Both the position numbers and the translations under genes were made by a program. Under the pieces are notes generated by a model. The model did no database searches. It was not told the origin of the DNA and saw only the letters and a program-made list of their open reading frames with translations. 33,311 nt of DNA, from assembly GCA_025360345.1 (NCBI GenBank), contig JANYCJ010000173.1:1-33311 (forward strand). Direction: 5' to 3'. Source of the stretch: Alphaproteobacteria bacterium. GTDB lineage: Bacteria; Pseudomonadota; Alphaproteobacteria; Rickettsiales; SXRF01. Position 1 is the stretch's first letter; every line of letters begins with the position of its first letter. Positions 10,117 through 33,311 of the stretch are shown here, in pieces.

Positions 10117-10809
10117 CTACGCGTCGGCTAGCGCTTTTTTCTTTTTCTTGGCTTTGGGTTCTTCCGCCACTTCTTCTTCCTCTTCAGGGTTCAAAAGCGC
10201 CACAATTTCCGCCACAAGGCTCTTGATTTCCTTTGCAGCCACGCTGGACGGATCAATTTCCGTGGCGCAGCGCCCTTCCATCAGCGAGGAAGCAAATAAT
10301 ACGCGGTTGCCCAGCGTCACCTCGGAAAGCTCCGGCAGCTCCGCGGCAATCGTCACCGCAAGGCGCGAATTAGCAGGTACGCGGTTCATCACCACCTTCA
10401 CCGGCACGCGCTCCGCCTTGGCCAATTCCAGCGTGGCTTTGGTAGCCCATAAATCGGTCGGGCTTGGCTGCACTGGAATCACCACAAGGTCAGCGCCGCG
10501 AATAGCGGTGCGCGCTTCCGTTTCCGTATGCGGAGGGCTGTCGATCACGATATAATCAGCGCCTTTTTTAAGGCGTGAAATTTCGCTGGCCACGCGCCAT
10601 CCGGAAACCGAGGTAAACGAAACCCCCGTATACCCCTCACCCAGCGCCTGCTCGCGGATATTATGCCAATAGCTCATGGACCCCTGCGGATCAATATCCA
10701 CAATCGCCACCCGGTTCCCCTTCTGGCTGAGGGCCACGGCCAGATGCGCGGCTACCGTCGTTTTGCCCGCGCCGCCTTTTTGCTGTGCCACGGTGATAAC
10801 TTTTGCCAT
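10117..10809 (-). CDS. ParA-family partition-type ATPase
   Basis: Deviant Walker A QQKGGAGKTTVAAHLA, VDIDPQGSMSYW, YIVIDSPPHTETEARTAIRGADLVVIPVQPSPTDLWA. Confidence 0.92.
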   Translation of the reverse strand: MAKVITVAQQKGGAGKTTVAAHLAVALSQKGNRVAIVDIDPQGSMSYWHNIREQALGEGYTGVSFTSVSGWRVASEISRLKKGADYIVIDSPPHTETEARTAIRGADLVVIPVQPSPTDLWATKATLELAKAERVPVKVVMNRVPANSRLAVTIAAELPELSEVTLGNRVLFASSLMEGRCATEIDPSSVAAKEIKSLVAEIVALLNPEEEEEVAEEPKAKKKKKALADA

Positions 10810-11930: not shown

Positions 11931-12338
11931 ATGGAAAACTACCTGAAAGTATTTTATGAAGCGGTGTGGACCAACAGCATGTTCCCCTTCGCCTCAGATG
12001 CTACCTTCACCGCGCTGAATCTTTTCGGTGGCTACAATATGCATATGGCCGCCATCATCGCCACCGCAGGCGCTACCGTGGGCCTCATTTCAAACTGGCT
12101 GATCGGCCAGTTCCTGCTGAAACTCCATACCACTTCCACCCTGCATATCCGCCAAGACTATTACGAAAAAATTTGTTACGTCTTCAACAAATATCTCATC
12201 TTCGTCCTGCTGTTCAGCTGGCTGCCGTTGTGCAAAGTGATTTTGCTGCTCGCAGGTTTCCTGAATTCCCGCCTGAAATTCGTGCTGCCGCTTACCGTCA
12301 TAGGCCAGTTGCTGTTTTACCTAAGCCAGATTTCATAA
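11931..12338 (+). CDS. YqaA/VTT-like small integral membrane protein
   Basis: Hydrophobic 135 aa ORF (SMFPFASDATFTALNLFGG...GATVGLISNWLIGQF...LFSWLPLCKVILLLAGF) resembling YqaA/SNARE-associated family. Confidence 0.6.
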   Translation: MENYLKVFYEAVWTNSMFPFASDATFTALNLFGGYNMHMAAIIATAGATVGLISNWLIGQFLLKLHTTSTLHIRQDYYEKICYVFNKYLIFVLLFSWLPLCKVILLLAGFLNSRLKFVLPLTVIGQLLFYLSQIS

Positions 12339-14321
12339 CTGGCGCACCAGCTTCCGCCCCGATAGCACGCTGCTGGCATAGCCATTGGCAAGCATAGGCG
12401 TTTCAGCCACGCTATGCTGCTCCGCCACTTTCACTTTCAGGTCACGCGCCCGCTGCAAAAGGCTCTCCGCCAGCCCACCCATATCATGCGATTGCCCACG
12501 CGTAAAATCTGTAACGTCAATGCCTATCACCATCCCTGCCGGCGGATTGGGTAAATGCGGGCTGGAAACATATGCCCCGTGCCCGCGTATCCGCGCGATA
12601 GTGCCGGTGGCATAATCCCTGCCCTGCCCCAGAATCTGCGACTGGAATACCTCGATGATCTGCTGCAGCTTCACCAGGTGGTCATTGCCCACCTCAAACA
12701 CTGAAAGCATGGATTCCGGCAAGCCCGTAAGCCCGCCCCACACTTCCATGCCATAAGCTTTTTCGAGCTTGGGTGGCTTGGCCGCGCGCAAAGCTGCCGT
12801 TTGTGCTGCAAAGACCGCAATATGCGTCGGGTGCTTGTCCAGCGGGTTATGCCCGAACACCCGCTCCACGTTAGGCGTGGCGGCGAATAAAGTGCCCAGC
12901 GCATAAGCCGCCTCGTTCTTCTTTCCCACCCCCATATGCCCGTTCACCGTCGCGCTGGGGTATTTCAGCTGTATCACCGGCGCATTCGCAAGCTTTGCTG
13001 CTTTGCGCTGCTCCAACTGCCGCATATCGGTCAGCTGCTTGGGGCTAAGCTCCGTTGCGCAGCCGTTCAGCACACTTTTAGAGGCCGCGCCATCTGTCAC
13101 GATCACCGAAAGCCACTGCTTGTTCGGCGCCTTCACCGTGTCAAGCATCATCGGCCCCGCCATGATCTCCACATCATCCTGATGCGCGCCCACCGATACA
13201 TCCGTAGCGTGCTGCAACACCCGCTGCAGCGCCTGTACATGGCGTCCGTTTTTCAGGTCGAACTTTTCATCCAGCCCCATCACTTCCGGGTCATAAAAAT
13301 CAAAACCAGCAGGGATAAACAGCTTTTTGCCATCATCCAGCCGCAACTCCTGGGCGGAAAACTTGCTGAGCAAAGCTTCCACAGCCCCGAATTTCAGGTT
13401 ACTCCGCTGCAACAAATGGCTAGGCCGCGTCATGCTCGCCGCCTCTTCATCCACCAGCAGCGTCACATGCGGGTGGTCGTGCAGCGCACGGGCCGGCAAA
13501 TCCTCCACCGGCTTCGCATCCCGCTTGCCATCGGCCTGCCGTGCTTCAAAAAACGCATCCACATCCGCAATCGGCATCGGGTTTCCCGTTGCCGCCTTGG
13601 TGAGCTGTTGCATCTGGCGCAGCTCTAGTGTGGAAAGCTCTTCCGAAACCTTTCCTGTCGGTTCCATCAGGTTGCGCACCGCCCATGCCTTGTTCTGGTT
13701 ATTCGCCAGCGCGATGATTTCTTTAGCTTCCAGGATCGTGCCGATACCCATCGTATAGGCGGCGTCCGGCACTTTCTCCCCCGGGCGATTGAAATAGGTG
13801 CCGTTATCCTCTTTGGTGCGTGCCGAAAGCGTAACCTCCCTCGTTCGCGAATCCCGCGCAGAGCCCACCTCGTTAAATCCGATATGCCCTTCACCGCCAA
13901 TCCCCAGCAGCTGGATATCAATCCCGCCCGCATCTTTGATTTTGCGCTCATAGGCCGCGGGGTCGAAATTAAAACCCTGCACTAGGTTGATATTTTCTTC
14001 CCGCGCCTTGACCTTTTTTAGGAATAACTCGCGCAGCTGGAAATCATAGGAATTGCGGTTGGTAGATTCTAATCCCTTGTAATGGTCGAGGTTGAAAAAC
14101 CGCGCCTTGGAAAAATCCAGCCCTTCCTTCTCGTGCATCCGCACCAGCTCGGCATATACTGGCTCCATCGTCGCCCCTGTGGCCAGTCCCAGCACCAGGT
14201 CGGGCTTTTCTTTAAGCCGCTGCGCAATGCGCAGCGCCGCAGCCTTAGCAATCGCCGCGTGGTCGCTCATTACGGATAAATTCAGCTTGTCCTTCGGCTC
14301 AAAAATATCGCTATCGCTCAT
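12333..14321 (-). CDS. Glucosamine-6-phosphate deaminase-like (NagB) fused to PIG-L/LmbE deacetylase-like domain
   Basis: NagB-like LVLGLATGATMEPVYAEL, FFNLDHYKGL, LLGIGGEGHIGFNEVGSARDSRTREVTL; PIG-L-like VGAHQDDVEIMAG and VFGHNPLDKHPTHIAVFAAQ. Confidence 0.88.
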   Translation of the reverse strand: MSDSDIFEPKDKLNLSVMSDHAAIAKAAALRIAQRLKEKPDLVLGLATGATMEPVYAELVRMHEKEGLDFSKARFFNLDHYKGLESTNRNSYDFQLRELFLKKVKAREENINLVQGFNFDPAAYERKIKDAGGIDIQLLGIGGEGHIGFNEVGSARDSRTREVTLSARTKEDNGTYFNRPGEKVPDAAYTMGIGTILEAKEIIALANNQNKAWAVRNLMEPTGKVSEELSTLELRQMQQLTKAATGNPMPIADVDAFFEARQADGKRDAKPVEDLPARALHDHPHVTLLVDEEAASMTRPSHLLQRSNLKFGAVEALLSKFSAQELRLDDGKKLFIPAGFDFYDPEVMGLDEKFDLKNGRHVQALQRVLQHATDVSVGAHQDDVEIMAGPMMLDTVKAPNKQWLSVIVTDGAASKSVLNGCATELSPKQLTDMRQLEQRKAAKLANAPVIQLKYPSATVNGHMGVGKKNEAAYALGTLFAATPNVERVFGHNPLDKHPTHIAVFAAQTAALRAAKPPKLEKAYGMEVWGGLTGLPESMLSVFEVGNDHLVKLQQIIEVFQSQILGQGRDYATGTIARIRGHGAYVSSPHLPNPPAGMVIGIDVTDFTRGQSHDMGGLAESLLQRARDLKVKVAEQHSVAETPMLANGYASSVLSGRKLVRQL

Positions 14322-23181: not shown

Positions 23182-23394
23182 ATGCCCTGCCCCATTTGCG
23201 GCAAGGAGGCCGTAGACACCTTGAAACCTTTTTGCTCCCTGCGCTGTAAGGATGTCGATCTCAACCGCTGGTTCACCGCAAGCTATGCGGTTCCCGTGGT
23301 GGAAGATGATGACGAAGACGGTGATGAAGCCCCCCCGCCCTATGAGGAAACTAACCCGCGCCCTACCTTTGTGCTGCCCAGCTATCGCTTTTAA
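23182..23394 (+). CDS. yacG: YacG-family zinc protein (DNA gyrase inhibitor family)
   Basis: CPICGK...FCSLRCKDVDLNRW matches the YacG zinc motif. Confidence 0.9.
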   Translation: MPCPICGKEAVDTLKPFCSLRCKDVDLNRWFTASYAVPVVEDDDEDGDEAPPPYEETNPRPTFVLPSYRF

Positions 23395-25108
23395 CCGGCG
23401 AAGGTTTGTTCAGGGTTTTTTGCCGTATATGCCCAATTGCAGCCTCCGCTACGGCCGAAGTCCCCGTATTCCCATCGGCAACCGCGACGAGGTTACCCGG
23501 CGCCGCATCGTGCATTAGTGCCACGGCAGTTATGTTATCATGCGAATGCGGCATGGCAGCTTCCACGGCCGCCTTCGATATCTCCCCCGGGCTGGGGTTT
23601 GCCCCATTGGCGAATAAAGGCTTTAGCGCCTTTTGAACCTCGCCTTTTTTAATGCCACTCAAAATACCGTCGGAACACACCAGCAGCCCCTTGCTGACAA
23701 ATCCCGGCGGGCATATCTTCTGTATGTCTACAGCAAAAACATCAGGTGTATAGCCTGAGGGTTCCCTCTTCTCCTGCCCCATAGAACCCAGCGACTTCGT
23801 AATTGTAGAGGCAAATCTTTTTTCCACATTCTCCAAGACATCGCGGAAGTCCGTGGCCATCCCCGCCTTAGCAACCTCCATGCGCTTGTCCCAAAAAACT
23901 TCGTTAGGGTATTTCGCCAGCTCCCCTCGCACCAGTCCCCCGGCCAGCGTATCGGGAACACTGATTTGGCCGAGATAGATATCCCCGGTTTTTTCATTCT
24001 GCATGATGGAAAGAACAGGCGAATCCCCGAGGGTGGCTACGACAAAATGCCCGTCCTTGGTTTTAAGGGCCATGCTCAGCGTAGAGCCTGCGGCCTCGTC
24101 TTTGAGCGCGTGCCCGATTTCGTCTTTAATCAGGGTCCGGGAAAAATCCATTCCCTGTTGTTTGTCCATGCCGATATACATGCCGGCATACCCTACGTCC
24201 TCATTAGTTTTGCGCCCATTTCCCGGCTTTTTGTTTTCCTCGGTGTAGCCCCCTCCGGTGCCGCCGCCTTCAGCCGCTATGGCCTTCTGTCCTTTCAGGG
24301 GTGCCAATGGGTAAGCCGCAACTTCCCCACTCCCAACTTTTGATGACCATGAATCCGGCGCAAGCCCCTCCGGTTCCGGGCCACTATAATGGGGATTAAA
24401 AATTGGATTCGTACCGCTCAGGTGCTCATACACCACTTGTCCACGGTGGAGCTTGATCTCACCATGCTTGCCGGAAATAACCGCGTCAGGCACATAAATT
24501 TCGCTCACGGGGTTTCTCCCAATGCGGATAGGCCCCTTGGCGAGGTCCCATTCCCGCGAAACCGGCCCGCTGGGAGCTACATATTCCACCAGCACCCTTG
24601 TGCCCCGCAGCCCTCTGGTAGTCACGGGCGTATCCTTAAAAAGCAAGGTGGTACCGTTTTCCATGGGAATCACATCCCCTTGGTTCAGAAGATCTTTGTC
24701 GGCTAATTTTCCAATTTGAACAGCAGCGGCATCCGGGACTGGCTTGGCCTGCGCCACGTAATGCGGATTCAAAATATCATTCGTAGTGCTGATATGCTTA
24801 TAGCTGAGCGTCCCATTGCTTTTTAAGCGAATCTGGGCATGGTCGCGTGAAACCGTAAGGTCTGACTCCGGAAGTTGAAATTCATTGCGCGGAGACCTCC
24901 CGATCGTAAGCGCACCGTGCGAAAAGTCATAGCTGTGCGAATGCGCTTCGCCTTGGGGGTCAATATGCGTAAAATCAAGTGTATTGCCCTGCTGCTTACC
25001 GAGCACAATAAAGCCATGCCCACAGGGGATCCGTGTCCCTTCCTCAACGGCAATCACATCATTGGCGCTAAGGAGCCTTTTCTGTGTCATCTTTCTATCA
25101 TCGGACAT
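23363..25108 (-). CDS. Tandem FHA-like domains fused to a PP2C-like phosphatase domain
   Basis: Two repeats LTIGRSPRNEF...VSRDHAQIRL and IRIGRNPVSEI...ISGKHGEIKL; then GRKTNEDVGYAG, AGSTLSMAL, VVATLGDSPVLSI, GLLVCSDGILS, SHDNITAVAL. Confidence 0.82.
   Translation of the reverse strand: MSDDRKMTQKRLLSANDVIAVEEGTRIPCGHGFIVLGKQQGNTLDFTHIDPQGEAHSHSYDFSHGALTIGRSPRNEFQLPESDLTVSRDHAQIRLKSNGTLSYKHISTTNDILNPHYVAQAKPVPDAAAVQIGKLADKDLLNQGDVIPMENGTTLLFKDTPVTTRGLRGTRVLVEYVAPSGPVSREWDLAKGPIRIGRNPVSEIYVPDAVISGKHGEIKLHRGQVVYEHLSGTNPIFNPHYSGPEPEGLAPDSWSSKVGSGEVAAYPLAPLKGQKAIAAEGGGTGGGYTEENKKPGNGRKTNEDVGYAGMYIGMDKQQGMDFSRTLIKDEIGHALKDEAAGSTLSMALKTKDGHFVVATLGDSPVLSIMQNEKTGDIYLGQISVPDTLAGGLVRGELAKYPNEVFWDKRMEVAKAGMATDFRDVLENVEKRFASTITKSLGSMGQEKREPSGYTPDVFAVDIQKICPPGFVSKGLLVCSDGILSGIKKGEVQKALKPLFANGANPSPGEISKAAVEAAMPHSHDNITAVALMHDAAPGNLVAVADGNTGTSAVAEAAIGHIRQKTLNKPSPVKSDSWAAQR
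24386..24691 (-). repeat. Intragenic duplicated unit, copy 2 (FHA-like plus HLSGTNPIFNPHY)
   Basis: Protein-level repeat within the same ORF (about aa 140-241). Confidence 0.7.
24758..25075 (-). repeat. Intragenic duplicated unit, copy 1 (FHA-like plus HISTTNDILNPHY)
   Basis: Protein-level repeat within the FHA-PP2C ORF (about aa 12-117). Confidence 0.7.
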
Positions 25109-25315: not shown

Positions 25316-28093
25316 ATGAAAACATTACCACAAACCTATGACCATCAGGCCCGCGAGAAACATTGGCAGGAGCATTGGGTAAACGCGGGCACCTATCATT
25401 TCCAGAATGACAAGCCCCGGGACCAAACCTATGTCATAGACACCCCGCCCCCCACCGTATCCGGCGTGCTCCACATGGGGCATATTTTCAGCTACACTCA
25501 GGCAGACTTTATCGCCCGCTACAAGCGCATGTCCGGCCAGGACGTTTTCTACCCCATGGGCTTCGACGATAACGGCCTGCCCACAGAGCGCCTCGTAGAA
25601 AAAACCCTGAACATCAAGGGCTCGGCCATGCCCCGCGAGGAATTCGTGGAAAAATGCCGCGTCGTGGTAAAAGACGCCGAAGACGAATTCCGCAAACTCT
25701 TCAAAAGCACCGCCTTAAGCGTAGACTGGCGTCAGGAATACCACACCATCAGCGACGATGTTCGCAGGCTTTCCCAAGCCTCCTTCGTAGACCTCATGAA
25801 AAAGGGAGAAGCCTACCGCGACTTCCGCCCCACCTACTGGGACTGGGTAGACCAGACCGCCATCGCACAGGCCGAGATCGAAAACAAGGACATGCCCGGC
25901 GCAATGAACGATATCGAATTCGCCATTGAAGCAGGCGGCACCATCACTATCGCCACCACCCGCCCCGAGCTTCTCGGTGCCTGCGTTGCCGTCATGTACC
26001 ACCCGGAAGACCCCAACGCCGCAAAATACGAAGGCGCAACCGCCATCACCCCCTTATTTGGCGTCAAAGTCCCCATGCTCCCTGATGAGCTGGTGGAGCG
26101 CGACAAAGGCACAGGCCTTGTCATGTGCTGCACCTTCGGCGACGACACCGACAAGGAATGGTGGCGCAAGCACAACCTGCCCACCCGCACCATCCTCGGC
26201 CTCGACGGCAAAATCACCATCCTCCGCCGCCCTTATGATGGCGGCGAGCCTACCGAGATCGACTTCCGCGGCAGCCGCGATGGCGACTATGCCGCCAAGC
26301 TGGACCGCATCAACTGCGTGGATTTCCCCTTCACCAACAGCGTATTCGTCCAGCTTGAAGGCCTTAAGCCCAAACAGGCCAACGCCAAAATGCTCGAACT
26401 GCTTCAGGCCTCAGGCAAATTACTCAAGCAAACTCAAATTGTTCACAGCGTCAAATGCGCGGAACGTTCCGGCACCCCCATTGAAATCATTCCGACCTAC
26501 CAGTGGTTCATCAAAATTGTGAACAAGAAGGAGCAACTTCTTGCAAAAGGTGAAGAATGCACTTGGCACCCCGAATATATGCGCATCCGCCTAAACCAGT
26601 GGATTGAAGGTCTCAAGGAAGACTGGTGCATCTCCCGCCAGCGGTTCTTCGGCATCCCATTCCCGGTCTGGCACTCAAAACGCCCCGGGGAAGAGGGCAA
26701 GATTCTATACGCCGATTTCAATCAGCTCCCCGTAGATCCTTTGCGCGACCTCCCTCCCGGCTACACGCGCGAAGAAGTCACCGCCGACAAAGATGTCATG
26801 GACACATGGGCCACCAGCTCCATCTCCCCCCAGCTGAACTCCCGCGGCATCAATAAAGACTTCACCGTGGACAAAGAGCGCCACGCTAAACTCTTCCCCG
26901 CCGACCTCCGCCCACAGGCGCACGAGATCATCCGCACATGGGCCTTTTACACCATTGTCAAAGCCCATCTTCATGGCGATACCATACCGTGGAAAAACGT
27001 GATGATTTCCGGCTGGTGCCTCGCCGCCGACAAATCCAAGATGAGCAAGTCCAAGGGCAATGTCATCACCCCCGTCGCCCTCATCGAAGACAAAGGCTCC
27101 GACGCGGTGCGCTACTGGGCCTCAACATCCCGCCTCGCCACCGATACGGCCTTCTCTGAAGACCTGTTAAAAATTGGCCGCAAGCTTGTGAATAAACTGT
27201 GGAATGCCTCAAACTTCGCCGCCCAGAATTTAAGCCGCATCGAAGGCACACCCACTACCGCTGCCGGCGATGCCAAGAGCGGAATAATTACAGAGACCCT
27301 CGACATCTGGATTCTCTCGCGCTTAAACCAGTGCATTAAGAAAGCCACACAGCAATTTGAATCATATGAATATTGCGACTCCCGAGTAGCAATCGAAGAT
27401 TTTTTCTGGAACGACTTCTGCGACAACTATCTGGAACTGGTCAAAAACCGCGCTTATGGCAGCGAAGGCGCCTCCGCCAAGGCCCAGCAATCAGCGCTCT
27501 ACACCATATATCACTGCCTTGAAACCTTGCTGCGCCTTTTTGCCCCCTTCGTGCCTCATATCACCGAAGACCTCTACAGCCATATTTTCGATGAACGCTA
27601 CGCGAAAAGCGGCTCCGTCCACGCTCGTGGCACATGGCCCAATGAAGCCGATTACCCCTATGAGGCCACCGCCGAGCGCAGCGGTATGGCCTGTGTCGAT
27701 ATCCTGAACGTTATCCGCAAAGCCAAATCAGAAGCCAATGTCTCCATTAAGTTCCCCGTCTCCCAGGTAGAACTCAAAGCCACCGGCTCCGAAACCACAT
27801 GGGCACATCTGAAACCCATCATCGAAGATTTGAAAGCCGCCGGCAACGCTGCCGCCATTGTCGCCGCCGATGACGCAAACCTGCCCTACACCACCGAGTC
27901 AGGCTGGTTCGCCGTGCGCGTCACCCTCACTAAGGTCGAGGAGCACAAGCGCAACCCCGACCAGCAGGAGCATGAAAAAATAGATGGCAACAAAATCCTC
28001 CACGCCCCCGGCTCGCCCGACCTCAGCAAGCACGTGGTAAAACTTAAGGTGGCCGAAGTGCCCCAGTCGCTGGATAAAAGCAAAGGCCGATGA
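25316..28093 (+). CDS. valS: Valyl-tRNA synthetase, archaeal/rickettsial type
   Basis: DTPPPTVSGVLHMGHIFSYTQADFIARY, YPMGFDDNGLPTERLVEK, KMSKSKGN. Confidence 0.96.
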   Translation: MKTLPQTYDHQAREKHWQEHWVNAGTYHFQNDKPRDQTYVIDTPPPTVSGVLHMGHIFSYTQADFIARYKRMSGQDVFYPMGFDDNGLPTERLVEKTLNIKGSAMPREEFVEKCRVVVKDAEDEFRKLFKSTALSVDWRQEYHTISDDVRRLSQASFVDLMKKGEAYRDFRPTYWDWVDQTAIAQAEIENKDMPGAMNDIEFAIEAGGTITIATTRPELLGACVAVMYHPEDPNAAKYEGATAITPLFGVKVPMLPDELVERDKGTGLVMCCTFGDDTDKEWWRKHNLPTRTILGLDGKITILRRPYDGGEPTEIDFRGSRDGDYAAKLDRINCVDFPFTNSVFVQLEGLKPKQANAKMLELLQASGKLLKQTQIVHSVKCAERSGTPIEIIPTYQWFIKIVNKKEQLLAKGEECTWHPEYMRIRLNQWIEGLKEDWCISRQRFFGIPFPVWHSKRPGEEGKILYADFNQLPVDPLRDLPPGYTREEVTADKDVMDTWATSSISPQLNSRGINKDFTVDKERHAKLFPADLRPQAHEIIRTWAFYTIVKAHLHGDTIPWKNVMISGWCLAADKSKMSKSKGNVITPVALIEDKGSDAVRYWASTSRLATDTAFSEDLLKIGRKLVNKLWNASNFAAQNLSRIEGTPTTAAGDAKSGIITETLDIWILSRLNQCIKKATQQFESYEYCDSRVAIEDFFWNDFCDNYLELVKNRAYGSEGASAKAQQSALYTIYHCLETLLRLFAPFVPHITEDLYSHIFDERYAKSGSVHARGTWPNEADYPYEATAERSGMACVDILNVIRKAKSEANVSIKFPVSQVELKATGSETTWAHLKPIIEDLKAAGNAAAIVAADDANLPYTTESGWFAVRVTLTKVEEHKRNPDQQEHEKIDGNKILHAPGSPDLSKHVVKLKVAEVPQSLDKSKGR

Positions 28094-28404
28094 CCGAAGC
28101 CCCCGATAATATGATGGAGCAACTGCCCCATTACCGCTCCAAATACGACGCGGCCAAGAAAATCCACGTCTACTTCGTCCCCGCCTTCGACGAATTGCGC
28201 AAAGAAAAAATGTATTTCTACGCCATTGCCAGCGAAATGCTTCACGAAGAAACCCTCCGCTGCCTGAAAAAAGGCGACATCCCCCACTTCGCCGTGGTTG
28301 TGGATAAGGGCTATGGCGAGCCAACCGCCGAGGTTAAGGCCAAGGTAAAAGCCTATTACGGCTTCGATCACGATAAAGAGGAAAGCGGCCGCCTAGCCCG
28401 CTAA
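28090..28404 (+). CDS. Hypothetical protein coupled to valS
   Basis: 104 aa ORF overlapping the valS stop by 4 nt (ATGA); coding-like composition, no recognised domain. Confidence 0.7.
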   Translation: MTEAPDNMMEQLPHYRSKYDAAKKIHVYFVPAFDELRKEKMYFYAIASEMLHEETLRCLKKGDIPHFAVVVDKGYGEPTAEVKAKVKAYYGFDHDKEESGRLAR

Positions 28405-30069
28405 GCCCAGCGTAACACTTTTCCCGCTGCGCTGCTCCGCCAGCTTCTGCACGAAGCCCGAATCAATTTTGAAATCTTTTGGCAGGTTAAAGATGTTGAT
28501 CTGCACCTGCGAAGCTTTGGAAGGCTCGGTCACCTTATATTCCTGCTGCTCCAGCTTCTGCTTTACCAGCCCAAGAATTTTTTCCTGCCGCGCCCCATCA
28601 TTCGGCACGCGTTCGGCCAGCTTCGCCGCCACTTCCGGCGATATGCCACCCTTCCGCACCTGATCGAGCGCGGCGTCGGAAAGCTTAGCCATGCTGAAGG
28701 CCATGCGCAAATTGCCCTTATCCATCTGCAAATGCGGCAATAGCTCCATATTGACCTTGCCGCTCTGCGCTTCCTTGAACACCCGTGCCGTGTCCACGGC
28801 ATCCGTCTGCCCATGGGCAATATTCTTGTAAGCGGCAATGATCTTTACATCCTGCGCGGTATACCCGTCGGCCTCGCGCAGCACCATCGCCGCCATCTTG
28901 CCCGGGCCTGTTCCTTTGGCATTCAGCGTCTTGGCCAGATCCACGCGGTGATGCCCATCCGCCACAAACACCCGCCCGTCCAGCCGCTCATGCACCAGTA
29001 TCGGGTCGCCATGCAGCAGCGGGTCCCACTGCTCCGTATGATAGCGCCCCTTTTCCGTCACACCCGCTTTGTCCCCGCCGGAGCGGAACTGGTAGGTCGG
29101 CGCATCCACTTGGATTTCTTTCGGGTCGATCAGCACCAGCTGCGCCTCCAGCTTGGGCTTGCGCATTTTCAGGCGCTCCTGCAGCTTGTCGAAACCCACG
29201 TCAATCTGCCGCGCCAGCGTATCCGCCGCCACGCTGATCTTAATATCTCGCGGCGCAGCCTCTCCCACCGTATCCACATGGAAATTGCGCGGCACCGCCG
29301 CCTTGATCGCTGCATCCTGGTATTTCACATAAGGATGGCTGGAAATCGCCAGCACCTCGCCCGCTTCCGGGTGCGTCTGCTGCCACGCTTCTATCGTATC
29401 TTTAGTGGTCGCACGTGCGCCATCCGGCTTGTTGTAAGTATTCACTTCGAACACGCGCACATTTTGCATATCCTTGGGCCAGCTCGCAGCCTTTTCGTAA
29501 TACCGCGCTTCCATCATATCCATTTCAATGCGGCTGGCCGCGCCGTTTGGCCCACGCCTGCCGGCGCTCTGCTCTTGCTCAGCGACCAGCGGCCGCTCGC
29601 TTCCCAGCAGCTGTATCTTGCCAAAACGCACCCCTTGGTCCCACATCTGCTTCAGCGTATCAAGGCGCTTATCCACCTCTGCTTCGGTCGCGCCCAGCAC
29701 CAGCACATGGTCGTAATATTTCTGTGTGGGCTTCACCCCTTCGGTCATGCCCGCCTGCTCCAGCACCTGCAGAAGCTCAGCGCGGTGCTGCTTGAAAGAT
29801 TCCGGTTCATTGATCTGGCTTCGCTCTTCACCCTTTGGGCGGATCATATGTTCCTGCGTAATATCATGCAGTACCTTGGAAGCCTGCTGCAAATCATTGA
29901 ACGTCAGGTTATTCAGGATCGCGTCGGCCTTTTTATCACAAAGAATGCCGTTCACGCCCTCCACCTCGCCAAAGGCGCCGGCAGCCTGCAACAGCTTAAC
30001 CACCGCCCGCTGCTGCGTAGCGTTGGAATAGCCAAGGGCGTCCAGAACAGGTTTTAAAGTAACGGTCAT
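28393..30069 (-). CDS. Large ORFan with YdcF/DUF218-like N-terminal region and ParB/Srx-like C-terminal region
   Basis: YDHVLVLGATEAEVDKRLDTLKQMWDQGVRFGKIQLLGSERPL...TTKDTIEAWQQTHPEAGEVLAISSHPYVKYQD; then LIDPKEIQVDAP...ILVHERLDGRVFVADGHHRVDLAKTL. Confidence 0.65.
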   Translation of the reverse strand: MTVTLKPVLDALGYSNATQQRAVVKLLQAAGAFGEVEGVNGILCDKKADAILNNLTFNDLQQASKVLHDITQEHMIRPKGEERSQINEPESFKQHRAELLQVLEQAGMTEGVKPTQKYYDHVLVLGATEAEVDKRLDTLKQMWDQGVRFGKIQLLGSERPLVAEQEQSAGRRGPNGAASRIEMDMMEARYYEKAASWPKDMQNVRVFEVNTYNKPDGARATTKDTIEAWQQTHPEAGEVLAISSHPYVKYQDAAIKAAVPRNFHVDTVGEAAPRDIKISVAADTLARQIDVGFDKLQERLKMRKPKLEAQLVLIDPKEIQVDAPTYQFRSGGDKAGVTEKGRYHTEQWDPLLHGDPILVHERLDGRVFVADGHHRVDLAKTLNAKGTGPGKMAAMVLREADGYTAQDVKIIAAYKNIAHGQTDAVDTARVFKEAQSGKVNMELLPHLQMDKGNLRMAFSMAKLSDAALDQVRKGGISPEVAAKLAERVPNDGARQEKILGLVKQKLEQQEYKVTEPSKASQVQINIFNLPKDFKIDSGFVQKLAEQRSGKSVTLGLAG

Positions 30070-30160: not shown

Positions 30161-30191
30161 AAAAAAACCCCCTTCCTTTGCAGGAAGGGGG
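30161..30191 (-). terminator. Intrinsic terminator downstream of the 30235..30897 gene
   Basis: Minus strand: CCCCCTTCCT-GCAA-AGGAAGGGGG-TTTTTTT, perfect 10-bp stem. Confidence 0.92.
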
Positions 30192-30234
30192 TCAGAGAGA
30201 GTAACCTAGAGAACTATATAATATCCAACACGAT

Positions 30235-30897
30235 CTATTTTGCGCTGGCGGAAGCCGTAGTAGCCACACCAAGGCCACGGCCTTCTTCATTTTGCTTAAT
30301 GCCTAAACGGTCCAGAAGCTCTTTGGCTTTAGAATCGGGAGGGCCTTCATTGGCAGTAGAAAGCGCCGCAGAGGCGACAATGCCCTGCTGGGGGGAAACA
30401 GTGGTCTCGGTAAGCGCGGCAGTTTTATCGGTAACCACGGCTGAGCCTGCACCAAGATTACCCTGTCCGTCCGCGGCCGTACCGGCAGCAACAACCGTAG
30501 GAGTTTTCTCAGGCCCGCTGGTCGTTTCAACAGCGCCGCCGCTGGCAGCAACCTTCGCATTGGCATCGCCAACCGCAAGGGCAGCACCCTGTGCCGGCGG
30601 GTTAACGCCTTCTTTAATTTGCTTCATTTCATCGGCGCTAGGTTGCAGGGCCTGCAATTCTTTTGCTTCGGCAACTGCACCCGCACCGCTCAAAATCCCG
30701 ACCAATCCCGCAACACCATTATCGGTAGCAGCAGCCGCAGCTACATCGCCATCAGCAAGCGCCGCTTTAATCGCCGCCACATTAGGGCTTGCCAGGATAG
30801 CACCAATAAGTGCGCTAACGCGTGCCGAACGTGCCGCTGCATCTGCATCTGCGGCAGTTTTGTTGTCGGCAACAGGCATAGCTACTGATTCCGCCAT
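30235..30897 (-). CDS. Ala-rich hypothetical protein
   Basis: MAESVAMPVADNKTAADADAAARSARVSALIGAILASP...; RBS AAGGA upstream of this ATG. Confidence 0.7.
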   Translation of the reverse strand: MAESVAMPVADNKTAADADAAARSARVSALIGAILASPNVAAIKAALADGDVAAAAATDNGVAGLVGILSGAGAVAEAKELQALQPSADEMKQIKEGVNPPAQGAALAVGDANAKVAASGGAVETTSGPEKTPTVVAAGTAADGQGNLGAGSAVVTDKTAALTETTVSPQQGIVASAALSTANEGPPDSKAKELLDRLGIKQNEEGRGLGVATTASASAK

Positions 30898-30954
30898 GAT
30901 AAAAAATCCTTTCTTCACTTATAAACAAAAACCAATAACCGGAAGACCGGGCAG

Positions 30955-31893
30955 TTACTTAGCCAGGCCGAGAGCCTTGCCACCTTTAAGCACCGTAAGG
31001 TAAGTAACAGCAGCACCGCCTGCAAGCTCAGCGGCAGCCTTGAACAGCTTGCCACCATCAGCCGGTATTTCCTGGCCTTTTTCGTCCGTATCAGCACCGA
31101 TAATGCCCATAACCTGTCCCAGATCCTTCAAGCCGTAGCCGCTGATGATAACGCCAAGCGCCGCACCACCAACCTTCATGCTCTTGCCAAGGAACTTCGA
31201 CTCGGTAATAACGCCCGTGCTCTTGTCAATGCTGGCAACATTCACGTTTGCCTTCACATTGGCCATGATCTTCTGCACAAAGTTCTTACCCTTCATGCCT
31301 TCTTCGCCAATAACGCCAAGCTTCACGGCTTCGGGCGTATTTCTATAAATCTTGCCACCCACGCTTGCAGCCGCGCCAACTGCGCTGGTAGCAGTTTCCA
31401 GTGCGCCGCTCGGGCCGCCGCCAATATGTTCATGGCCACCCAAAACCTTAGCTTCGGTGCGGTAACGGGTCAGGTGTTCCTGATCCTTGGCAACTTCCGC
31501 AAGTGCTTTGTCACGAGCCTTTGCCAAAGCATCAATTTCAGCTTTGTTAGCCGCGCTGGCAACACCGGTTTCATAAGTAGCCACGGCAGCTTTTTTGGAA
31601 GCTTCCAGCTCAGCCTGCAGGCGAGCGGCAGCGGTTTCGAATTTACCACCGGTTTCCTTCAGCGTCTGTGCGGCTGCCTGGCCATCAGTTGAAGTAGCCC
31701 ATTTGCTATCCGGCGCTTCAAGTTTTGCCTTATTAACGGAATGCTGCGTATTGAGCGTGTCCCAATGATCGTTCAGCGCCTTAGCAGTATCGTTGGCTGA
31801 ATTGAAAATAGCTTCGGGTACTGCCTTGCCCTGCGTAGAGGGATGTACCGGCTGTGCAGCAACGTCATAAGGTTTGAATAGGGGCTCAGACAT
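30955..31893 (-). CDS. Ala/Lys-rich hypothetical protein with predicted coiled coil and hydrophobic C-terminus
   Basis: 312 aa: MSEPLFKPYDVAAQPVHPSTQGK...AARLQAELEASKKAAVATYETGVASAANKAEIDALAKARDKALAEVAKDQEHL...GGAAVTYLTVLKGGKALGLAK. Confidence 0.72.
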   Translation of the reverse strand: MSEPLFKPYDVAAQPVHPSTQGKAVPEAIFNSANDTAKALNDHWDTLNTQHSVNKAKLEAPDSKWATSTDGQAAAQTLKETGGKFETAAARLQAELEASKKAAVATYETGVASAANKAEIDALAKARDKALAEVAKDQEHLTRYRTEAKVLGGHEHIGGGPSGALETATSAVGAAASVGGKIYRNTPEAVKLGVIGEEGMKGKNFVQKIMANVKANVNVASIDKSTGVITESKFLGKSMKVGGAALGVIISGYGLKDLGQVMGIIGADTDEKGQEIPADGGKLFKAAAELAGGAAVTYLTVLKGGKALGLAK

Positions 31894-32033: not shown

Positions 32034-32486
32034 TTATTCAAAGAAAATAATGCTAACAGGATAAAAAAAGTGTTTTTCCGCTTCCCGTCTTTGCACCAGC
32101 CCGGGAAGTTTCACATTCCCTGCAAAAACCCAGCGCCCGAACTGCTCCGCCGCCAGTTCCATCTCTCCTTGGGTAACAAACCGGCATAAAGTAGATTTTT
32201 CAAATGCATAAACACCAATATTATACGCAAGGCAGACCACCGCGTCAAACTGCCCCTGCGTAAGACCGCAGCCAACCACCCGCGACACCCCCGCCTCCAC
32301 AACACTAATATCCTGTTTAAGCAAGTTTTCAGCCGCAATCTCACTGATGGCCGCCACATCGTCGCCCTCATGCATCACATGCCCATACCCAATCGTCCGC
32401 TTGCCAGCCGGGCACAGGTAAGCAGCCGCTGAAAACCCTTCAAACTGCTTGAGCAGCGCAATACCCCGTTCAGAAATATGCATCAT
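32034..32486 (-). CDS. Phage-type lysozyme / endolysin (GH24)
   Basis: ISERGIALLKQFEGFSAAAYLCPAGKRTIGYGHV with catalytic E and T/GYGH motif, LTQGQFDAVVCLAYNIG, WVFAGNVKLPGLVQRREAEKHFF. Confidence 0.92.
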   Translation of the reverse strand: MMHISERGIALLKQFEGFSAAAYLCPAGKRTIGYGHVMHEGDDVAAISEIAAENLLKQDISVVEAGVSRVVGCGLTQGQFDAVVCLAYNIGVYAFEKSTLCRFVTQGEMELAAEQFGRWVFAGNVKLPGLVQRREAEKHFFYPVSIIFFE

Positions 32487-32490
32487 GGGA

Positions 32491-32772
32491 CTAATGGATA
32501 TTGATAAGGCGTTTATTGATCTGCTCTGTTTGCCTGTGCATACTTTCAATTTCCTTTTTCAAATATTCCAGCCTTTCATCCAGCCGCGCGAATTTCTCAT
32601 TCAGCATCACTGTATTCACCGACTGGCGCTCTACGCTGCTCACCCGCGCATCAAGTTGGGTGGCCCATACCAGCGCGCCCGCGGCCTGTATCACAACCGA
32701 AAAAAGCACCGCCCCCGGCATCCTGCGCAACCATGAAAACAGAACCGGAAATCGCTGTTCATCCCCTGACAT
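32491..32772 (-). CDS. Small one-TM plus coiled-coil protein, holin-like or lysis-associated
   Basis: TM AVLFSVVIQAAGALVWA followed by heptad-like VERQSVNTVMLNEKFARLDERLEYLKKEIESMHRQTEQINKRL; located just upstream of the lysozyme. Confidence 0.6.
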   Translation of the reverse strand: MSGDEQRFPVLFSWLRRMPGAVLFSVVIQAAGALVWATQLDARVSSVERQSVNTVMLNEKFARLDERLEYLKKEIESMHRQTEQINKRLINIH

Positions 32773-32783
32773 AACATGCCCGC

Positions 32784-33311
32784 TTAAAAGATGTTTTGCG
32801 CAACAGAATCACTCACCGCCGCTGCCGCAACAGGGGTAGGGTGCGTGCCATCCAGCGTCTTGCCCGGCGTCGCTGCCGCCCAAAGCCCGCTGTCTCGCGC
32901 AGACATTGCCCCATCCGCCGCCTCGATGCACCGGCTGACACCCGCGGGCAACCCCCGTACGTAGTTATTATAGGTGTTAAGGTCCGAAAGTGCCCACGGC
33001 GCTGCTTTCTGCGTCTGCCCGCCGGTGGTGGCCCAGCTGTCCGTGCTGTCCGTACGCGGCGTAAGCGTACAAACGCTTTTTCGCCCATTATATAGGGAAA
33101 GATAGCTCAGCATTTCACTTTCCAGCTGGCTGACATTGCCCCGCAGCCGCAAATCATTGACGCCATATTGAAAGACAACGTCGGTATAGCTTCCGTTTAG
33201 CGCGGCAATAAGCGCTTGCAGCCGCGTTGTGCCGCCCAGCGCCTCATGCACCCCCTGCCCCTGTCGGCATATCTTCATATAAGAAGCCTTGCTCGCCAGT
33301 GCCCTTGCCAG
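32784..33311 (-). CDS. SGNH/GDSL-like hydrolase, N-terminus truncated by window edge
   Basis: VVFQYGVNDLRLRG (GxND block) and DGTHPTPVAAAAVSDSVA (DxxH block). Frame remains open to 33311 (LARALASKASYMKICRQG...). Confidence 0.7.
   Translation of the reverse strand: MARALASKASYMKICRQGQGVHEALGGTTRLQALIAALNGSYTDVVFQYGVNDLRLRGNVSQLESEMLSYLSLYNGRKSVCTLTPRTDSTDSWATTGGQTQKAAPWALSDLNTYNNYVRGLPAGVSRCIEAADGAMSARDSGLWAAATPGKTLDGTHPTPVAAAAVSDSVAQNIF

Follow-up and report, generated by a model that had tools for sequence, protein, structure and literature searches.

A predicted ParB/Noc-like module joined to a divergent DUF218-like domain, usually encoded beside gene transfer agent lysis genes in one alphaproteobacterial family

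The window, by which we mean the whole stretch of 33,311 nucleotides that was analysed, is the entire contig 194 of a MAG of 212 contigs (2.49 Mb, 80% complete). Towards its end, a series of reverse-strand genes runs from homologues of the lysis genes of a gene transfer agent (GTA, a domesticated virus particle) to a gene for a two-part protein, P0001. Read along that strand, the features are the following.

32784..33311, (-): partial ORF, by eye resembling the end of an SGNH/GDSL hydrolase; the contig ends inside it
32491..32772, (-): small holin-like membrane protein with a homologue in the GTA cluster of relatives
32034..32549, (-): phage lysozyme/GTA endolysin, homologue of the endolysin ending the GTA cluster of relatives
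30955..31893, (-): 312-aa ORF, its glycine-rich, hydrophobic C-terminal part conserved at the same place in relatives G001 and G002
30235..30918, (-): Ala-rich 227-aa ORF between the lysis genes and the fusion gene
30166..30193, (-): intrinsic-terminator-like hairpin, 12 pairs and a T-run, separating the fusion gene from the 227-aa ORF
28393..30069, (-): fusion gene (P0001), 558 aa, stop codon included
29170..30069, (-): N-terminal half, residues 1-300, a helical leader and a divergent DUF218/YdcF-like domain
29245..29727, (-): DUF218-like Rossmann core, residues 115-275, placed by profile alignment and secondary structure
28780..29145, (-): predicted ParB-like NTP-fold, residues 309-430, with YQFR (Box I-like), VADGHHR (Box II, GxxR) and AAYKNIAHGQTDAVDTARV (Box III-like)
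28945..28959, (-): DGHHR, residues 371-375
28540..28779, (-): helical HTH/M-domain-like region, residues 431-510, placed by AF2, Foldseek and hhalign
28396..28539, (-): basic tail, residues 511-558, of low confidence (pLDDT about 30) and pI 9.6

Because the contig ends within the first of these ORFs, the upstream GTA genes fall outside the window. The 227-aa ORF had no significant family match in Pfam, NCBIfam or PHROG. The terminator-like hairpin is the longest stem in the region, where the number of hairpin matches is not above that in shuffles. Elsewhere in the window lie a 581-aa protein that has two FHA regions and ends in a PP2C-like part (23363-25108, -) and a 662-aa protein in which a glucosamine-6-phosphate isomerase domain is joined to a PIG-L deacetylase domain (12333-14321, -).

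A preliminary description of this DNA had reported a YdcF-like region followed by a ParB/sulfiredoxin-like one, and both the strings it quoted and the two-part layout are real. In translation of the window, the reading frame of P0001 is intact over 558 aa with zero internal stops, and it contains all the motifs: VLVLGAT at residues 122-128, LLGSERPL at 154-161, TTKDTI at 221-226, LAISSHPYVKYQD at 240-252 and VADGHHRVDLAKTL at 369-382. The codon pattern of VADGHHR occurs a single time across the whole genome. The AF2 model has a mean pLDDT of 81.6, rising to 88.8 in the N-terminal half, where strands alternate with helices. Among 55 relatives searched, two-part homologues with 43-59% identity are found in six other genomes of the family (G001, G002, G003, G007, G011 and G012), and they share the start methionine, G003 differing in details; in G001, the gene (L020 10001-11134) stops at 378 aa, shortly past DGHHR and close to the contig end. 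Residues invariant in all seven fusion members include G126, R135, R159, E182, D224, T225, S243, P246, D371, G372, H373, H374 and R375. As the same layout recurs in six family genomes, the fusion is not due to chance: the fragmentation of the MAG into 212 contigs is the sort of circumstance in which two ORFs might be wrongly juxtaposed, but the same fusion in six other assemblies, with one clade for each half, already refutes this explanation, and we regard its probability as negligible. In the literature searched, as the preliminary description had expected, we found no characterised protein with this combination. The taxonomic survey it called for places the fusion, among the genomes searched, in one alphaproteobacterial family.

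The N-terminal half, about residues 1-300, appears from sequence profiles and models to be a divergent DUF218/YdcF-type Rossmann protein, recognisable as remote homology below the curated HMM cut-offs. No curated Pfam or NCBIfam family was above its cut-off for this half in P0001 or the relatives scanned, and in Pfam, P0001 itself had no match to PF02698; that family was nevertheless touched by 7 of 34 N-half relatives at E 0.1 or better, with a best E of 9.5e-4. An earlier hhalign comparison with a narrow DUF218 set was unconvincing (probability 4%). A second one, with a broader DUF218 set and more N-half members, was collinear with 41 DUF218 domains over 112 columns at a score of 31.9, where 40 column shuffles reached no more than 14.7, and with a pairwise probability of only 49%; since its set-up was picked after the first had failed, we count its support only in combination with the Pfam and Foldseek results. 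In Foldseek, the full-length model matched viral models of YdcF (Edafosvirus, probability 1.00) and DUF218 (S-SRM01, probability 0.98) at ranks 36 and 38, and no DUF218 structure was among the top 50 PDB matches of the N-terminal half. Several other candidates were set aside. Stathmin matches of the N-half profile in solved structures (E down to 1.3e-6) cover a charged helical stretch and were judged spurious, and the sequence search against solved structures gave nothing useful; weak, isolated Pfam matches to tropomodulin and APOBEC-like families were rejected; and the Foldseek likeness to SRP54 NG, with TM-scores of at most about 0.35 and an rmsd above 10 A, reflects generic Rossmann similarity.

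The correspondence with the DUF218 family (YdcF, SanA, ElyC) extends to the order of Rossmann strands and helices and to R135, E182 and T222, which align with the DUF218 Arg, Glu and Thr, and the 34-member alignment has G126, R135, R159, S243 and P246 invariant. Unlike the family, however, P0001 carries an extra helical leader and has not kept the His and Arg of YHMPR, the stretch having an invariant P246 and a near-invariant Q251 instead. The kinship proposed in the preliminary description is supported as remote homology, with these two residues missing. In SanA, a Thr-His-Glu set has been proposed as catalytic (PMC12176290); T222 and a Glu (E182, which may not be the Glu of that paper) align with the set, but the His does not, and with this residue lost, any activity of the DUF218-like half should differ from that of DUF218. 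E. coli SanA and ElyC have a predicted inner-membrane anchor and a periplasmic domain (PMC12176290). Many of the stand-alone N-half proteins start, as read by eye, with a signal-peptide or lipobox-like leader, whereas the fusion is without one.

The C-terminal half (about residues 309-510) is, as judged from profile and model comparisons, probably a ParB/Noc-like NTP-fold followed by an HTH-like region, again a remote homologue below the curated cut-offs. The best PDB match in Foldseek is Noc (7nfu_A, E 9.8e-5, probability 1.00), and Noc 7ng0 and ParB with CDP or CTPgammaS also match at probability 1.0; the TM-scores, depressed by the two-domain nature of the query model, are low, at 0.14-0.23 by query and at most 0.50 by target. 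Against 28 chromosomal ParBs, hhalign was collinear over 160 columns with a score of 38.1, the best of 40 shuffles reaching 24.0, and the alignment path runs through Boxes I-III, with QPR, GERR and the ENxxR region, and through the HTH to a segment of the form LP..V...G.ls.GHA. The GxxR P-motif of Box II is present as G372-H-H-R375, with D371, G372, H373 and R375 in 36 of 36 sequences; the full set of residues invariant across these C-half sequences is Q327, F328, G336, G365, D371, G372, H373, R375, E399, G402, A413, N416 and A428. The ParB-type fold that the preliminary description had read from DGHHR is upheld as remote homology, and the likeness is wider than that motif, taking in a ParB/Noc-type N-domain, an HTH-like region and kin in phage polyvalent proteins.

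In contrast to Noc and chromosomal ParB, Box II of P0001 reads DGHHR in place of GERR, and hhalign puts a Lys where ParB has the Box III Glu, which makes ParB-like hydrolysis doubtful. The ParA-binding motif [LFI]G[KR]G[LFI] is absent from P0001, no ParB C-terminal dimerisation domain is predicted in the tail (511-558) of the AF2 model, and there is no adjacent parA, the ORFs flanking the fusion gene not being parA-like. The start of a ParA/MinD-like ATPase (KGGAGKTT) was seen at 10117-10809 (-), 18 kb away and not next to the fusion gene. Many ParB-fold fusions are described in a 2025 survey, which finds that binding of CTP, ATP or GTP is not predictable from sequence (PMC12704722). P0001 resembles the orphan ParB-CTPase-fold fusions of that survey in its GxxR P-motif, fused domain, mobile-element kin and missing ParA-binding motif; unlike them, it has no match to PF02195 (Pfam; none in the relatives scanned either) or TIGR00180 (NCBIfam). 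The main text of the survey mentions neither DUF218 nor gene transfer agents.

The preliminary description had also raised the prospect of a kinase, and DGHHR might indeed suggest a SerK/sulfiredoxin-type small-molecule kinase or phosphotransferase: the motif aligns with DUF1015 with a good local score, and relatives have sub-threshold DUF1015 matches. This likeness is, however, that of the DGHHR string, 21 columns long, and ends at the motif; outside it the sequence, the HTH part included, follows ParB collinearly but does not follow DUF1015, and Foldseek prefers Noc/ParB. We consider such a function very improbable.

By sequence, the closest known kin of the C-terminal half lie inside giant phage polyvalent proteins. 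P0001 matched phrog_10691 (E 2.6e-16), phrog_21 (E 1.5e-12) and the ParB-like phrog_1033 (E 2e-5). The portal label of phrog_21 was not taken to indicate a portal role: matches were confined to its last third, and phrog_10691 was the stronger match for the proteins checked. A viral scan with the ParB-like module located it on 71 contigs, in sampled frames of about 780-3600 aa, many running beyond the stretch examined; two long frames carried further domains, LPD38 in one and LPD5, LPD1 and ART-PolyVal in the other. Viruses were scanned with this module alone, since no part of the N-half alignment was sufficiently conserved to serve as a query. In Ruegeria phage 45A6, the module sits in an 11.7-kb ORF after the tail genes. 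Across 28 aligned viral sequences, the phage module (phrog_10691; ANH49087.1 of phage 45A6) shares with P0001 the conserved DGH(H/Q)R, QF(R/K), AA..N and D.AKV; unlike P0001, where it stands alone behind a DUF218-like domain in a cellular protein, it is one domain of phage proteins of about 800-3900 aa. Foldseek against viral models likewise matched phage polyvalent and ParB proteins. The phage polyvalent context and the ParB/Srx fold are shared with the DdrB-like ParB domains described in a 2017 paper on polyvalent proteins (PMC5512222).

Trees place the seven fusion N-halves all on one side of one branch (100/98), and the eight C-halves of the family all on one side of another (100/100), apart from the viral ones. 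This fits a single origin of each half within the family, with the N-half standing alone elsewhere. Among the 55 relatives, G008 and G009 have C-half-only proteins, and five genomes from other families of the same order have N-half-only ones; the N-terminal half of P0001 has about the length of its stand-alone relatives (roughly 275-400 aa). The C-only protein of G008 has kept a match to fusion residues 1-34 (score 55 vs. at most 45 in 500 shuffles), which suggests a secondary loss of the DUF218-like part in that genome. When 385 genomes of the class were sampled with a profile of 12 N-half members, 29 of them, our own included, had matches; nearly all are small genomes, and no recurrent neighbour gene was found beside the stand-alone N-halves among these matches. 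A plasmid search found no homologues. Two N-half relatives adjoin each other on contig 51 of G075 (L049/L055), and another lies in a 532-aa frame (L046 1381-2976, -) whose first part resembles a CdsA-type membrane protein, possibly another fusion. Most likely, the ParB module was acquired once from a phage and then joined to a resident DUF218-like protein, a direction of transfer that we infer.

The GTA context is absent from the preliminary description. In five of the six family genomes with readable neighbours, the fusion gene lies behind the lysis-gene end of a GTA cluster; the neighbours in G011 are unreadable and were left out of this count. In G001, G002, G007 and G012, the gene shares a contig with GTA_TIM, after DUF2793-type (confirmed by HMM only in G007), holin-like and endolysin genes, G012 being without the endolysin and having the fusion after the holin; the window is the fifth, linked by its holin and endolysin. 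The GTA genes of G007 include DUF2793 and lysozyme as well as, upstream of the fusion, terminase, portal, capsid and baseplate hub genes, and a capsid on contig 98 of our own genome is 75% identical to that of G007. GTA_TIM and DUF2793 were not found in our own assembly, consistent with its incompleteness. Among the head and tail genes of the G007 and G002 regions (L071, L073) are large ORFs (350-990 aa) with no obvious kin in phages, as well as cytochrome b561-like and YceI-like genes. On the side away from the GTA, the flank varies between genomes (a 104-aa ORF and valS, MFS or asd). In the window, this 104-aa ORF (28090-28404, +) adjoins valS, is convergent with the fusion gene and overlaps its stop region; a 75% identical copy lies beside valS in G007, a genome whose GTA region also holds a weaker relative (L071 12335-12580; 31%, E 2e-6).

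On the other hand, G003 carries a full-length fusion on a 13.6-kb contig without GTA genes, and the C-halves of G008 and G009 are unlinked as well; GTA_TIM is found in 12 of 12 high-quality family genomes, and six high-quality genomes have the GTA and no fusion. With such unlinked members and GTA genomes without the fusion, the link is suggestive, not proved. The protein could instead belong to the host chromosome, as an orphan ParB-fold/DUF218 protein acting as a nucleotide-dependent regulator in housekeeping or stress, its proximity to the GTA inherited by descent and functionally meaningless. This would agree with the unlinked copies, with the terminator-like hairpin in front of the fusion gene and with the stand-alone N-halves of mostly small genomes. 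Yet three genera, at about 50% identity, have retained the linkage despite turnover of the flank on the other side, and the nearest known kin of the ParB module are phage proteins; a serious alternative, it strikes us as rather unlikely.

Injection together with the phage DNA has been proposed for polyvalent proteins, and phage P1 packages a processed form of DdrB in its head (PMC5512222). With the module occurring in such proteins and the fusion gene sitting behind late GTA genes, one may envisage a phage-derived nuclease or an anti-competitor effector, roles suggested for DdrB-like ParB domains, that the GTA particle delivers into recipient cells. Against this, neither P0001 (E up to 1) nor the relatives scanned (E up to 5) matched a DdrB-like ParB family in Pfam, no packaging signal is known, the nuclease activity of these domains is itself an inferred one, and unlinked members exist. 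Such delivery seems to us improbable.

Our best explanation, held tentatively and at somewhat less than even confidence, is that P0001 is an NTP-binding, DNA-handling orphan ParB-like/DUF218-like protein with a phage-derived module, serving as a late accessory of the GTA. It would be a ParA-independent ParB-fold protein in which a DUF218-like domain is followed by a ParB/Noc-type nucleotide-binding domain and then by an HTH-like one. An NTP would probably be bound through the GxxR of DGHHR and might switch the state in which the protein handles DNA, and the protein may assist the adjoining GTA either within the cell that makes the particle or by travelling with it. A bolder proposal, and one that we consider doubtful, is that a GTA lineage recruited the phage polyvalent ParB module, in fusion with a DUF218-like domain, to form a particle protein that is switched by NTP and handles DNA or serves as cargo.

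The roles of ParB-fold proteins beyond chromosome segregation are an active question, the fused partners and the choice of nucleotide being mostly unknown. The fusion is compact and confined to one clade, and its other half is known as a stand-alone protein; each half is therefore testable alone. If the GTA link is functional, a domain of the phage virion type would have been retained in a domesticated particle, offering a way into the handling of DNA by such particles; and if the recruitment by a GTA lineage is true, the protein would be both a new GTA component and a new class of ParB-fold fusion.
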